A DNA stretch of 64,000 bases from Sphaerochaeta halotolerans. Its GTDB lineage: Bacteria > Spirochaetota > Spirochaetia > Sphaerochaetales > Sphaerochaetaceae. Position numbers and translations under genes: made by a program. Below are positions 27,242-32,052 of the stretch, in pieces (positions within the stretch are counted from its first letter, which is position 1; every line of letters begins with the position of its first letter). The stretch is from the NCBI RefSeq assembly GCF_003429665.1, contig NZ_QUWK01000005.1:62001-126000 (forward strand), read 5' to 3'. The notes under the pieces are model-generated. The model saw only the letters and a list, made by a program, of their open reading frames with translations. It was not told the DNA's origin and did not search any database.

Positions 27242-28273
27242 ATGAAGATGGGAAAAGTTCCAATTCTCGAAACAATCAACAAGATTCCTGGTGGATTGAT
27301 GGTAGTGCCTTTGGTACTCGGGGTATTGACCAACACATTCTTTCCTGAAGCATTGATGATTGGCAGTTTTACCACTGCATTTTTCAAGACAGGTTCACTT
27401 ACCTTGATTGCCTTGCTCTTCTTCTGCAGTGGAGCACAGATTCAGTTTAGAACTGCTGGTATGTCGCTCTATAAAGGCGTGGTCCTCAATTTCAGCAAGG
27501 TTCTCTTTGGTGTTGCTTTTGGTGTTATCTTTGCGAAGGTTGCTGGACCTGAAGCTGCATTCCTTGGTGTTACACCGCTTGCCATGATCAGTGCAATGTC
27601 CAACAGTAATGGTGGACTCTATACCGCACTGGCTTCCAAGTATGGTGATGAGTCTGATGTTGGAGCTATCGCAGTTATCTCCTCCAATGATGGTCCTTTC
27701 TTCGAGATGGCTTTCATGGGTGTTGCCGGTGTTGCAAACATTCCTATCATGAGTCTTGTTGCTGTCATCGTGCCCATCATAGTTGGTATGATCCTGGGCA
27801 ACCTTGATGAGAGAATCAGAGAGTTCCTCAAACCTGGCATGTTTATCGCAATCTTCACCTTTGCCTTCCCACTCGGTGCAGGACTGAGTCTGCAGACAAT
27901 CATTGAAGCTGGTATTCCTGGTATCATCCTCGGTCTCATGACCCTTATCATCACCGGTGTACCTTCCTACTTCATCTTCAAGTGGCTGATTCCCAAGAAG
28001 TCGAGAAGAACTGCCGCCGTAGGTGCTGCTGTCGGTACCTCTGCTGGTAACTCCATTGCCACTCCAGCCGCTATTGCATTGGTGGACCCAGCTTGGGCTC
28101 CATTTGCAGACAAAGCAACCGTACAGGTAGCTGCTTCCATCATTGTGACAGCCTTGCTTGTCCCGTTCCTGGTTGATTTCTTCTACAGGTGGGATTTGAA
28201 GCGTGGACTTGTGAACGAGCATCCTACCACGAGCGCGGAAATTGCGGTTGACGCAAAAGGCCAGCAACTATAA
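27242..28273 (+). CDS. kdgT: 2-keto-3-deoxygluconate permease family (KdgT)
   Basis: 343-residue secondary transporter with about ten membrane helices. MGKVPILETINKIPGGLMVV and PLVLGVLTNTFFPEA match the family's N-terminus, as do the conserved loops LAMISAMSNSNGGLYTALAS and GTSAGNSIATPAAIALVDP. E. coli KdgT takes up 2-keto-3-deoxygluconate by proton symport. The neighbouring larA, pdxA2-like and DUF1537 genes suggest that this one carries a short sugar acid. AAAGGAG precedes the ATG. A hairpin terminator and a TTGTATACAA palindrome separate it from larA. Confidence 0.87.
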   Translation: MKMGKVPILETINKIPGGLMVVPLVLGVLTNTFFPEALMIGSFTTAFFKTGSLTLIALLFFCSGAQIQFRTAGMSLYKGVVLNFSKVLFGVAFGVIFAKVAGPEAAFLGVTPLAMISAMSNSNGGLYTALASKYGDESDVGAIAVISSNDGPFFEMAFMGVAGVANIPIMSLVAVIVPIIVGMILGNLDERIREFLKPGMFIAIFTFAFPLGAGLSLQTIIEAGIPGIILGLMTLIITGVPSYFIFKWLIPKKSRRTAAVGAAVGTSAGNSIATPAAIALVDPAWAPFADKATVQVAASIIVTALLVPFLVDFFYRWDLKRGLVNEHPTTSAEIAVDAKGQQL

Positions 28274-28289
28274 GCTGAACATGCACGTT

Positions 28290-28299
28290 TTGTATACAA
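28290..28299. promoter_or_regulatory. Palindrome TTGTATACAA, possible GntR-type operator
   Basis: A perfect 10-bp palindrome between kdgT and larA. Its form, TTGT-AT-ACAA, resembles operators of FadR-type GntR regulators, which often control sugar-acid genes. No GntR gene lies in the window and no second copy was noticed near the divergent or convergent genes, so the evidence is thin. Confidence 0.35.
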
Positions 28300-28304
28300 T
28301 TATC

Positions 28305-28335
28305 AAGAAAGACGGGCACATGCTCGTCTTTCTTT
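28305..28335 (+). terminator. Hairpin between kdgT and larA (terminator or attenuator)
   Basis: A perfect 10-bp stem (AAGAAAGACG and CGTCTTTCTT) with a 10-base loop that can pair further (GCA and TGC). The T-rich 3' arm gives only a short tail. It would lower larA expression relative to kdgT or end kdgT transcription. Confidence 0.7.
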
Positions 28336-28351
28336 GCTCAAGGAGTCAACC

Positions 28352-29701
28352 ATGCAGGTACATAACCCAATAGACAGCCAGGGAAAGAAACTAGAATTAC
28401 CTGAACATACCCTAGTGTATGCAATGCAGGCGCCAAAGGCACTCAGTGATCCCAAACAGGCGGTTTCTGATGCACTTGCCAATCCCATTGCATCCGATAG
28501 CTTCCAACATATAGCGAAAGCCAAACTTGCAGCAAACCCACAAGCAAAGGCCGTAATTGTCATCTCCGACAATACCCGTCCAGTACCGTACAAGGGGGAA
28601 GGAAACATCTTGGTTCCTCTTCTGGAAGTGCTTCTTGAAACTGGGTATGAAAAAGATAATCTTACGGTTCTTATTGCAACTGGTACACACCGTCCAATGA
28701 CCGATGATGAGATTGAACGAATCATTGATCCTTGGGTATTTGAACATAAGATTGCCATCGTAAATCATGATTGCAAAGAGGATGACAACCTCACCTACCT
28801 CGGCAGGACCGAGCGGGGAAGCGAGGTGAAGATCAACAGCATCTATAGCAAGGCTGATTTGAAAATTCTCACAGGATTGGTGGAAAGCCACTTTATGGCT
28901 GGGGTCAGTGGTGGACGCAAATCCGTCTGTCCAGGCCTAATCAGCGAACATGGCACCTTCCTGTTCCACGGAGCAGACCTGATGGGTCATCAAAACAGCT
29001 GTGACCTGCTTTTGGATGGTAATCCAGTACACGAGGAATCTCTCGCATTCGCAAAGATGGCAGGAGTGGATTTCATCATCAATGTAACCCTAGACCATGC
29101 ATTCAACATCACGGGAGTGTTTGCTGGAGACTTGGAGGTGGCACATCAAAAAGCTTTTGAGATGGTAAAAGGGTATGCAAAGATTCCCATCAACGAAGAG
29201 GCTGATATTGTCATCACGCACGCTGGGTTTGTCGGGATTAACCACTACCAGAGCGCGAAGGCAGCTTTTGCTGCAATCGGTGCGTTGAAGAAGGACGGGT
29301 ATCTGATCAGCATTGCCAACTTTACGGACAAGAAAGATGTTGTGGGTTCGGTGATGTACAAGACTGTACTGAGTATCTTGGCGCTTACCAGCGCACAAGA
29401 ACTGGTGACCCTCCTGCACAGCAAGGATTGGCCGTTCATGCCAGACCAATGGCAGGTACAGAAATGGGCTTCCGTATTTGAGAAGATTCCTTTGGACCAC
29501 TACTATTACTATGCTCCCCAGATTGCGGGAGAGGACAATAGCGGACTCCCTGGAATCGATGCTTCCTCATTGACCAATAGCACTGAGTACAGCGAGGTTG
29601 TCAAGAAAGTCATCCAGCATATAGAAAAGAGAGAGCAAAGAAAGGACTTGAAGATTCTCTATCTGAGTGATGGACCCTATGCCATCCCCTATGTAGGATA
29701 A
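28352..29701 (+). CDS. larA: LarA-family nickel-pincer racemase/epimerase
   Basis: 449 residues. LarA enzymes racemise lactate or other 2-hydroxy acids with a nickel-pincer nucleotide joined to a lysine. Every active-site position of the L. plantarum enzyme has a counterpart: SDNTRPVP with Arg76, IATGTHRPMTDDE with His113, HFMAGVSGGRKSVCPG with His180 and cofactor Lys190, and FLFHGAD with His206. The protein should therefore be active if the cofactor is made; larB, larC and larE are not in this window. Next to kdgT and the four-carbon acid genes, the substrate is more likely a sugar acid than lactate. ATG at 28352 with AAGGAG. Confidence 0.87.
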   Translation: MQVHNPIDSQGKKLELPEHTLVYAMQAPKALSDPKQAVSDALANPIASDSFQHIAKAKLAANPQAKAVIVISDNTRPVPYKGEGNILVPLLEVLLETGYEKDNLTVLIATGTHRPMTDDEIERIIDPWVFEHKIAIVNHDCKEDDNLTYLGRTERGSEVKINSIYSKADLKILTGLVESHFMAGVSGGRKSVCPGLISEHGTFLFHGADLMGHQNSCDLLLDGNPVHEESLAFAKMAGVDFIINVTLDHAFNITGVFAGDLEVAHQKAFEMVKGYAKIPINEEADIVITHAGFVGINHYQSAKAAFAAIGALKKDGYLISIANFTDKKDVVGSVMYKTVLSILALTSAQELVTLLHSKDWPFMPDQWQVQKWASVFEKIPLDHYYYYAPQIAGEDNSGLPGIDASSLTNSTEYSEVVKKVIQHIEKREQRKDLKILYLSDGPYAIPYVG

Positions 29702-29722
29702 CCATAAGGGATGTAGTATTGA

Positions 29723-29755
29723 GAAAGAGGAGGCAGTGCCTCCTCTTTCCTTTTC
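29723..29755 (+). terminator. Strong terminator between larA and pdxA
   Basis: A perfect 12-bp stem (GAAAGAGGAGGC and GCCTCCTCTTTC) with an AGT loop, followed by CTTTTCC. It lies between two convergent genes and may also slow leftward transcription, although the T run on that side is poor. Confidence 0.8.
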
Positions 29756-30727
29756 CTAGAGTTTTTCCCCGATCTCTATTGCTTTCAGTAGGCTTTTTTC
29801 ACTTGCTTTCAATGTACCGGCGATATCAAAAGCAGTGCCATGGTCTACGGAAGTTCTGATGACATCCAAACCGACAGTGATGTTAACCCCGCTTTCGAAG
29901 CTGAGCATTTTCAAAGGAATATGCCCTTGATCATGGTACATTGCTACCACGATATCCCAAGAACCTTGAAGCGCTTTCAAGAATACCGTATCAGGAGGGA
30001 TTGGACCACTGACATTCAATCCTTCTGCCTTCGCTTCCTCGATGGCGGGAATGATTTCCTTGATCTCCTCATCCCCAAAAATTCCATTTTCCCCTGCATG
30101 TGGATTCAAGCCCGCCACTGCAATCCTTGGATTCTCATAGCCAATCTTCTTGAGTGTCTCATGTGCAAGATGTATGACTTCAAGGACCCTGCTTTTCTTA
30201 CAGAGGTCACAGGCTTTTCTGAGCGAAACATGGGTTGAGACATGGATGACCTTCAATTTCTCACTGTAAAGCAACATTGCATACCGCTCCCCTTTGGTAA
30301 ATGCACCAAAGATTTCGGTATGGCCGGCGTAGGGAAATCCTGCAAGGTGGAGTGCTTCCTTGTTGAGTGGAGCAGTAACCACTGATGAAATATCCTTACG
30401 CAATGCAAATTCGATTGCAGCACGCACGCTTTCAAAGGCTATGGTACCACCAAGGGAGGTTACTACTCCTACCTGGATCTGGGAAATATCAACCGGATGA
30501 GGGTCATACACATTGATTGCTGAGTCATCCCACTCTTCAATCTTCTTGATTGTATTGAACCTCATTTCGTATCCAAGAAGGGAGTTGTAATACTCCAAAA
30601 GCGAACGGGTTCCAAACAACAATGCGCTCTTCTGGTACTCCATCTTGGCATGCAAAGCCTTGAGGGTAATCTCAGGCCCAATACCACAGGGGTCCCCAAG
30701 TGTAATCCCAAATTTCTTTCCTTCCAT
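29756..30727 (-). CDS. PdxA-family dehydrogenase (PdxA2-like, four-carbon acid catabolism)
   Basis: 323 residues. GITLGDPCGIGPEITLKAL opens the family fold. The metal-binding His residues appear in GFPYAGHTEIFGAF, VAMYHDQGHIPLKML and AGLNPHAGENGIFG. Classical PdxA makes a pyridoxine precursor from 4-phosphohydroxythreonine. PdxA2 enzymes next to DUF1537 kinases oxidise and decarboxylate 4-phospho-threonate or 4-phospho-erythronate to dihydroxyacetone phosphate. The partner kinase ends nine bases upstream, so the catabolic role is preferred. TAGGAG precedes the ATG. Confidence 0.87.
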   Translation of the reverse strand: MEGKKFGITLGDPCGIGPEITLKALHAKMEYQKSALLFGTRSLLEYYNSLLGYEMRFNTIKKIEEWDDSAINVYDPHPVDISQIQVGVVTSLGGTIAFESVRAAIEFALRKDISSVVTAPLNKEALHLAGFPYAGHTEIFGAFTKGERYAMLLYSEKLKVIHVSTHVSLRKACDLCKKSRVLEVIHLAHETLKKIGYENPRIAVAGLNPHAGENGIFGDEEIKEIIPAIEEAKAEGLNVSGPIPPDTVFLKALQGSWDIVVAMYHDQGHIPLKMLSFESGVNITVGLDVIRTSVDHGTAFDIAGTLKASEKSLLKAIEIGEKL

Positions 30728-30736
30728 AACACGCTC

Positions 30737-31951
30737 CTACCGTTCTTGCAAAACCCTCATTCCATAAGCAATTGCTTGTTTATTTCCGAAAGCCCCTGCC
30801 TTGGTGACAATTCTCATCGACGCATAATTCCCTGTTGGTACCTCAAGGAGGGGAATACCACCTTGTACTTCCCTGAGTATTTCCACCTCATGGATTCCCA
30901 AAGCCTCCAACAAGCCGAACGCAGTATCTCCACCGGTGAGCAACAAACCGCCCACATCACACTGCTCAACCAAATCCTTCCCCAAGAGGCTGAAGGAGTC
31001 CCTGATCCTTGCAGCAACTGCATCTGAAGAGAGGCCTTTTTTATCCCCTTTCTCAATAGAACGATTGAAAGCAGTCTCATCAAGAACTGAGGAAACAACA
31101 ACCAGAACCGGCTTTCGCCCTAGTATTGTCTCTTTAATTCGTTGGATGAGTACGGAAAAATCCCCATCTTCAAGCAATGTTTCCACTGCAACCTCTTCAG
31201 TGACTATACCGTGTTTCTTTGCATACATCACCTGATCGCGTGTTACCCCACTAAGACTTGCAACCATTCCCAGTACTCCACGAGAGGGAAATTGTACATT
31301 GCAGAGCGCATCAGCGAGTCCCGCACTCCCTACATACAATATCTGTTCTTTCCGCTGGACAGCCCAGTTGGCAAGATGAAGCAGATCATCTTGTGTAAGT
31401 GCATCACAAACTAGGAGGGTTTTCCCTTCCACGGCCGGGAATGCAGTTCCCTTCAGATGGTGCGCCACTCTATACGTATTCTGTCCCTGGGAAAACAGAG
31501 AAACCAGGTCATCCTCCATTGCCGGTTTTCTAGGATCCTTGCCATAATCACTCTCCAGCAACGGTTTTCCATGAACCAATAGTCTTCCGCCCTGTACTGT
31601 TCTTCCTTGATCTGGGAAAGCAGGAGAAACTATGATCAGTTCTGCAGTACAGAACGTTGCAACCTCCATGACTTCGGTACAAATATTGCCGCGCAGGGTG
31701 GAATCAATTTTCTTCATGATTACGGAAAAGGCTCTATCATCCAATCCTTGTAGTGCAGAATGAACCAAGGAAGCGGCTTCTAGCTCGCTTGTATTCCGTG
31801 ACTCAGTGTCCAACACAAGTGCATCAGCCAACGTATCTCTCGGGGAATAGCTACCAATCGTTACACGGGTAGAGAGCCCTTTCCGTTTGAGTTGTAGACC
31901 ACTGTCATTTGCACCGGTGAAATCATCGGCGATAATCAGGTAATGATGCAT
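30737..31951 (-). CDS. Four-carbon acid sugar kinase family (DUF1537; DtnK/OtnK-like)
   Basis: 404 residues. The N-terminal substrate domain shows LIIADDFTGANDSGLQLKRK, KKIDSTLRGN and SPAFPDQGRTVQGGRLLVHG. The C-terminal nucleotide domain has LLLTGGDTAFGLLEALGI and VTKAGAFGNKQAI. These are the hallmarks of kinases that phosphorylate threonate, erythronate or 3-oxo four-carbon acids. The product would feed the PdxA-like dehydrogenase encoded next. The ATG at 31951 has GAGGA seven bases upstream; the ATG at 31957 sits too close to it. First gene of a two-gene operon that faces kdgT-larA tail to tail. Confidence 0.87.
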   Translation of the reverse strand: MHHYLIIADDFTGANDSGLQLKRKGLSTRVTIGSYSPRDTLADALVLDTESRNTSELEAASLVHSALQGLDDRAFSVIMKKIDSTLRGNICTEVMEVATFCTAELIIVSPAFPDQGRTVQGGRLLVHGKPLLESDYGKDPRKPAMEDDLVSLFSQGQNTYRVAHHLKGTAFPAVEGKTLLVCDALTQDDLLHLANWAVQRKEQILYVGSAGLADALCNVQFPSRGVLGMVASLSGVTRDQVMYAKKHGIVTEEVAVETLLEDGDFSVLIQRIKETILGRKPVLVVVSSVLDETAFNRSIEKGDKKGLSSDAVAARIRDSFSLLGKDLVEQCDVGGLLLTGGDTAFGLLEALGIHEVEILREVQGGIPLLEVPTGNYASMRIVTKAGAFGNKQAIAYGMRVLQER

Positions 31952-32052
31952 GGACATTCCTCGCTTTCTGTCAGTGTACCCGATGAAAGGCTTCTCACTC
32001 TACCATAATCTTGTACTTTACACCAAGGTGAACACTGCTCTACACTCTCCGT

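Follow-up and report, generated by a model that had tools for sequence, protein, structure and literature searches.

The closest described counterpart of the locus considered here is the set of genes for D-threonate catabolism. According to the passages of PMC10079672 that recount Zhang 2016, the permease KdgT, a D-threonate kinase (DtnK) and the dehydrogenase PdxA2 take D-threonate from import to dihydroxyacetone phosphate (DHAP), and the same passages state that KdgT of Ralstonia, together with its D-threonate kinase and dehydrogenase, enables Escherichia coli to grow on D-threonate. We analyzed a stretch of 64,000 nucleotides from Sphaerochaeta halotolerans (contig NZ_QUWK01000005.1, positions 62,001 to 126,000; hereafter the window), which belongs to a 2.93-Mb genome of 49 contigs with a completeness of 99.99%. 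Within the window, the block at 27242–31951 holds a kdgT–larA pair on the forward strand and a pdxA2–DUF1537 pair on the reverse strand, which converge tail to tail with a hairpin separating their stop codons:

27242..28273, + strand: gene of a KdgT-family permease, predicted to be a sugar-acid importer of the D-threonate type (PF03812, 398 bits)
28352..29701, + strand: larA, encoding a homologue of nickel-pincer-type 2-hydroxy-acid racemases and epimerases with the pocket F-M-A-W-Q (Lar_N, 168 bits; matches to LarA_Ip and LarA_Lp)
29723..29749, + strand: hairpin, terminator-like for the larA transcript (12-pair stem; fold z −3.4)
29756..30727, − strand: gene of a predicted PdxA2-type dehydrogenase of the 4-phospho-D-threonate type (matches to PdxA2 structures)
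30737..31951, − strand: gene of a predicted DUF1537 four-carbon acid sugar kinase of the D-threonate kinase type (SBD_N and NBD_C domains; model scores)

Because KdgT, DtnK and PdxA2 already form an established D-threonate set in the cited passages of PMC10079672, three of the four genes correspond to a described pathway, with which the block shares the permease family, the kinase family, a dehydrogenase that is probably of the PdxA2 type and the adjacency of the genes. The arrangements differ in that Caballeronia and Burkholderia have a single kdgT–kinase–pdxA operon, whereas Sphaerochaeta has two convergent operons with larA placed behind kdgT. The open-access literature searched contains no report of LarA being added to D-threonate genes. 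We regard the block as a version of the known D-threonate locus plus LarA, and our favored explanation, to which we assign a probability of roughly 0.6, is that this added LarA acts outside the D-threonate pathway as well. An initial annotation of this DNA had presented the joining of all four genes as a possible new entry into four-carbon sugar-acid catabolism. In partial support of it, the four genes are conserved as neighbors in Sphaerochaeta, the kinase and the dehydrogenase are nearest to the D-threonate type, and LarA has its catalytic and cofactor residues intact, but the novelty of the whole join is not supported, given the established set. The convergent layout with its terminator-like hairpin, likewise part of that annotation, is confirmed by the domain scores and the 12-pair stem. 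By analogy with relatives of demonstrated function, the trio would perform the D-threonate route in Sphaerochaeta: a four-carbon sugar acid would enter through KdgT, receive a phosphate on O4 from the DUF1537 kinase and be oxidized at C3 by PdxA2, with decarboxylation then yielding DHAP. LarA, encoded in the same orientation directly behind the permease gene, would most likely invert C2 of a small 2-hydroxy acid, and it may widen the intake, for example by converting D-erythronate to D-threonate.

The window proteins were compared with segments from 24 Sphaerochaeta genomes (G000–G023), 17 of which carry an orthologue of the window larA at 66–92% identity. The nearest named relatives, with larA 92% identical, are Sphaerochaeta sp. 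S2 and a metagenome-assembled genome of the Sphaerochaetaceae. The whole block lies on a single contig in 12 of these 17 (G000, G001, G002, G004, G008, G010, G011, G013, G017, G018, G019 and G022), with an additional open reading frame between larA and pdxA2 in G002 and a kinase gene that runs past the contig end in G010. Contig ends interrupt the block in three more (G006, G007 and G009), and in the remaining two (G003 and G023) larA stands without its three partners. The four-gene arrangement is not a product of chance, since it is conserved across the genus, and the co-occurrence in related genomes that the initial annotation had listed as a check is borne out. KdgT itself was found in 17 of the 24 genomes and in none of 16 relatives from other genera; in G012 both kdgT and the kinase gene sit at contig ends, so the presence of larA cannot be read there. 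The kdgT of G009 (L066, at about 730–1759) is in two pieces with an in-frame stop, which reflects either decay of this copy or an error in the sequence.

The evidence that LarA is separable comes from both directions. At the site in G003 and G023, kdgT, pdxA2 and the DUF1537 gene are gone while larA and both flanks remain, and genome-wide searches of the two found no KdgT, no PdxA of the window type, and DUF1537 proteins either not at all (G023) or only of a different type (G003). A tree of the two flanking genes places G003 as sister to G006 and G023 as sister to G022 (support 1.000 each), and because both sisters retain the trio, it must have been lost at least twice. The lone larAs are as conserved as their flanks or more so, and hence still constrained, the G003/G006 pair being 88.3% identical versus 83.1% and 69.1% for the flanks and the G023/G022 pair 89.8% versus 89.3% and 83.8%. 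Conversely, the kinase gene, pdxA2 and kdgT are contiguous in G020, where larA is missing from a 108-bp gap and a related larA (52%) is located elsewhere, in a transketolase operon, and kdgT–DUF1537–pdxA operons without larA occur on replicons of Caballeronia and Burkholderia (Burkholderiaceae, outside the phylum). In G016, kdgT (80%), pdxA2 (51%) and a DUF1537 kinase gene (26%) stand beside a different, non-orthologous LAR-type larA (28%; F-F-W-Q), which is followed by a glycerate kinase gene. LarA is a separable add-on to the known trio. LarAs on plasmids number 15 records, and none of the three neighborhoods read among them has a DUF1537 gene; one of them carries larBCE and a glycerate kinase gene. 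Because LarA was kept when its three partners were lost, we ascribe to it a role outside the pathway, and the gene-loss pattern and the pocket together favor a LarA with its own substrate, for which glycerate and lactate are the foremost candidates. Several points weigh against this explanation. The kdgT–larA order is tight in the 12 complete cases, which argues for a substrate shared with the permease to a greater extent than one would expect from the two losses. The genomes of G003 and G023 are drafts (completeness 86% and 82%), albeit with an uninterrupted locus in both. The kinase and the dehydrogenase both score under the D-threonate equivalog cut-offs, and the roles of all proteins at the locus are predicted from sequence.

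How close, then, are the three partners to their described counterparts? The permease belongs to PF03812 at the score listed above, and it falls far short of the 2-keto-3-deoxygluconate permease equivalog TIGR00793 (220.2 bits; cut-off 453.8). The DUF1537 protein has both kinase domains (SBD_N, 155 bits; NBD_C, 83 bits), and its best-scoring specific model is that for D-threonate kinase, at 247.8 bits (cut-off 450) versus 119 for the 3-oxo-tetronate kinase model, below the cut-offs of both. The dehydrogenase, with a PdxA domain score of 352 bits, matches the structures 2hi1 (PdxA 2) at 328 bits and 6e85 (D-threonate 4-phosphate dehydrogenase) at 314 bits, compared with 198 bits for 1ps7 (PdxA); its best specific model is NF002891 (360.7 bits; cut-off 583), and it reaches the cut-off of the general TIGR00557. 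Judged by these scores, the D-threonate type appears to be the nearest for both enzymes. The kinase (30737–31957 and orthologues) diverges faster than its neighbors at the same loci, with identities of 40–77% versus 79–97% for kdgT and 68–93% for pdxA2, and its start at 31951, the position given in the initial annotation, is more likely than one at 31957. A second DUF1537 protein of the same genome (C4, L095), 25% identical, adjoins a 219-amino-acid open reading frame and transport genes and probably belongs to a separate sugar-acid pathway.

The LarA of the window passes for both of its domains, Lar_N (167.8 bits; cut-off 23.3) and LarA_C (29.1 bits; cut-off 25), and its matches in the Protein Data Bank are LarA_Ip (184 bits) and LarA_Lp (150 bits). 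Its translation most likely begins at the ATG at 28352, a start common to 11 aligned orthologues. The nickel-pincer residues that the initial annotation had described as kept are indeed present, as the equivalents of D72, R75, H108, H174, K184, H200, Y294, Q295, K298 and W358 of LarA_Lp. Among the 17 same-type orthologues, 15 were read over the active-site region (G007 offers a C-terminal fragment only and G010 was unread), and all 15 keep the catalytic H108 and H174 and the cofactor residues R75, K184 and H200. Relative to LarA_Lp, F176 is replaced by M, V297 by A and T359 by Q, and the specificity positions 175, 176, 358 and 359 read F-M-W-Q. In the accessible text of PMC11851776, the short-chain racemase LarA_Ip carries Leu174, Met175, Trp356 and Gln357; in that of PMC11770544, LAR enzymes usually show F-F-W-E/Q, and LarAH43, an enzyme with Q, favors glycerate. 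The pocket resembles those of racemases of small 2-hydroxy acids. Compared with the LAR/SAR-type racemases (LarA_Lp, and LarA_Ip as presented in the excerpts of PMC11851776), the window LarA is alike in its domains, its catalytic and cofactor residues and W358, and it shares the M and Q of its pocket with LarA_Ip; it differs at positions 175 (F) and 297 (A), in its sugar-acid gene context, and in belonging to a genome without LarB, LarC and LarE. It scores 274.4 bits against the lactate racemase equivalog NF033504, under the curated cut-off of 460. The LarA group with a single catalytic histidine (PMC12611868) is ruled out for it by the presence of both histidines. With GntE (LarAH19/20), the D-gluconate/D-mannonate 2-epimerases, it shares the idea of a LarA that feeds a sugar-acid pathway through C2 epimerization, but the GntE signature given in the consulted part of PMC11770544 (E, V, A, H) differs from F, M, W, Q.

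Among the alternatives, the one that survives best is that LarA racemizes a small 2-hydroxy acid (glycerate, lactate or 2-hydroxybutyrate) and shares only the permease or the induction with the D-threonate genes, a possibility that we place somewhat below even. The F-M-W-Q pocket is near the L-M-W-Q of LarA_Ip and shares Q359 with LarAH43, which prefers glycerate; larA has outlasted the trio; and G016 pairs its LAR-type LarA with a glycerate kinase beside the same kdgT. However, no glycerate kinase gene lies beside the window larA, and the linkage to a permease and a kinase for four-carbon acids would on this account be loose, yet the order is well conserved.

It is unlikely, in our estimate, that the four genes constitute one pathway, as the initial annotation had proposed, in which LarA epimerizes C2 of imported D-erythronate to give D-threonate for conversion by the kinase and PdxA2 to DHAP. 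The scheme is chemically sensible, since D-erythronate and D-threonate differ at C2 only, and the replacement of V297 by a small residue (A) and of T359 by Q could give room and polarity for a four-carbon acid. The gene order is conserved in 12 of 17 genomes with three more cut by contig ends, and a non-orthologous LarA adjoins kdgT, DUF1537 and pdxA in G016. LarA homologues do epimerize C2 of 4-deoxy-threonate and 4-deoxy-erythronate according to the sections of PMC11770544 available, but the efficiency of LarA1 on these analogues is given there as about 1/1000 of that on lactate. Moreover, larA has twice been retained after loss of the trio, the trio of G020 and that of the Burkholderiaceae operons have no larA with them, the pocket is of the small-acid kind, and the LarA gene of G016 is followed by one for glycerate kinase, all of which weighs against a LarA that feeds the kinase. 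Nor was an operator found that is common to the upstream regions of kdgT and DUF1537. In 5 of the 16 genomes read (G002, G004, G008, G012 and G018), a TTGTATACAA-like palindrome upstream of kdgT is conspicuous, being equaled in no more than 8 of 200 shuffles, and it also stands out before the lone larA of G003 (0 of 200), but it is not notable in the window species or upstream of DUF1537, and a shared kdgT/DUF1537 operator was accordingly dropped as evidence of co-regulation. As for the hairpin between the two operons, 7 of its 12 pairs are G–C, its folding energy is −23 kcal/mol, and it fits the larA transcript because its U-rich tail is on the + strand only; with 6 terminator-like sites observed in the whole scan versus 4.6 expected, only the strength of this site is notable.

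Quite apart from its substrate, the LarA of the window raises the matter of its cofactor. The genome has three LarA genes, and at 99.99% completeness it shows no LarC by two models, while the best hits for LarB (33 bits) and LarE (26 bits) are under the cut-offs; the initial annotation had looked to these genes for support, and that none exceeds its cut-off tells in part against it. Across the genus, Lar_N is present in 23 of the 24 genomes, the exception being G007, which was scored as lacking LarA though a larA fragment lies at a contig end, whereas LarB, LarC and LarE were each found in one of 24, always G022. There they form a larE–larB–larC set on one 9-kb contig (C267, L089) of a draft of 270 contigs, in which a LAR-type larA additionally lies next to a UxaA-like gene; because this order resembles that of G026, transfer or contamination is possible. 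Poor assembly was rejected as the cause of the absence elsewhere, since the single-contig genomes G001, G002, G004, G016, G018 and G019 also lack LarB, LarC and LarE. In the phylum, LarA (called at E 1e-20) was found in 22 of 120 genomes at least 90% complete, and LarC in 18 of those 22, on the assumption that both searches covered the same 120; LarA without LarC marks G000, G042, G053 and G125. With the count restricted to genomes at least 90% complete, LarC occurs in 0 of the 14 LarA-bearing genomes of this genus versus 21 of 27 elsewhere in the phylum (Fisher p 1.1e-6), a value that describes a lineage difference and not a strict probability because the genomes are non-independent; the threshold left out 10 of the 24 in the genus and, outside it, G037 (LarC present) and G038 (LarC absent). 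LarA without LarC was further seen in G025, G032 and G039, from other families of the class. The open-access literature searched holds no report of genera with LarA yet without larBCE.

Have the LarAs of the genus, then, ceased to use the nickel-pincer cofactor, binding another nucleotide or persisting as relics? That LarBCE is confined to a single genome of the 24 would fit such a change, but D72, H108, K184 (the cofactor tether) and H200 (the nickel ligand) are kept in all 46 LarA sequences spanning the region (39 belong to this genus; an open-reading-frame filter missed G010 and G002, the latter being read separately), and the lone larAs are still constrained, which together make this reading quite improbable. 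The conservation of these four residues would otherwise be hard to explain, which argues that LarA binds the cofactor; the window LarA appears built to bind the nickel-pincer nucleotide, with LarB, LarC and LarE of its own genome seemingly not the source.

Last and least, PdxA and DUF1537 might serve vitamin B6 synthesis or the recycling of 4-hydroxythreonine, the latter a role of DUF1537 that Thiaville and co-workers reportedly described in 2016, with the neighbors incidental, but this is very improbable, because the PdxA is far nearer to PdxA2 structures than to PdxA, and no PdxJ was found in any of the 25 genomes searched, including its own, so that the downstream B6 step is missing and a B6 role of the window PdxA is rejected. 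That PdxA2 is capable of the PdxA reaction, as the accessible portion of PMC9997740 has it, is the point in its favor.

Other LarAs of the genus occupy varied settings. The second larA of the S. halotolerans genome (C5:54000–72000, L051; 8609–9862, + strand) is malate-racemase-like, with the pocket Y-F-Q-H-K, and ends an operon for a thiamine pyrophosphate enzyme, transketolase-like halves, a GAPDH-like protein and phosphoglycerate kinase; its type was read in ten further genomes of the genus. The third (C10:1–12000, L052; 1693–2973, − strand) follows TRAP-transporter-like genes, and in its product F replaces the catalytic K298. A sister LarA, 52–56% identical to that of the window and with the same pocket where readable, occurs in G015, G020, G021 and G005 (L074, L083, L085 and L061) in an operon with genes for a transketolase, an Fe-dependent alcohol dehydrogenase, a TIM-barrel isomerase and a DUF362 protein, an uncharacterized sugar route. 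G004 (C1:737000–756000, L060), a genome without LarBCE, has two neighboring LarAs with the single-histidine signature (H174N, R75K).

Beyond its metabolism, the locus illustrates how patterns of gene loss can break up an attractive four-gene scheme, here into three genes that belong together and one addition. The larger surprise that it holds is the genus-wide absence of the cofactor genes. We know of only a single biosynthetic route to the nickel-pincer nucleotide. Tentatively, and at just short of even odds, the whole genus would run several nickel-pincer enzymes without LarB, LarC and LarE, one of them attached to D-threonate catabolism, through uptake of the cofactor or a precursor from the community or through an undescribed second route. 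Complete genomes that have between one and several LarAs, intact at their cofactor sites, and none of the three pathway genes allow a direct test for salvage of the cofactor or for a second pathway.

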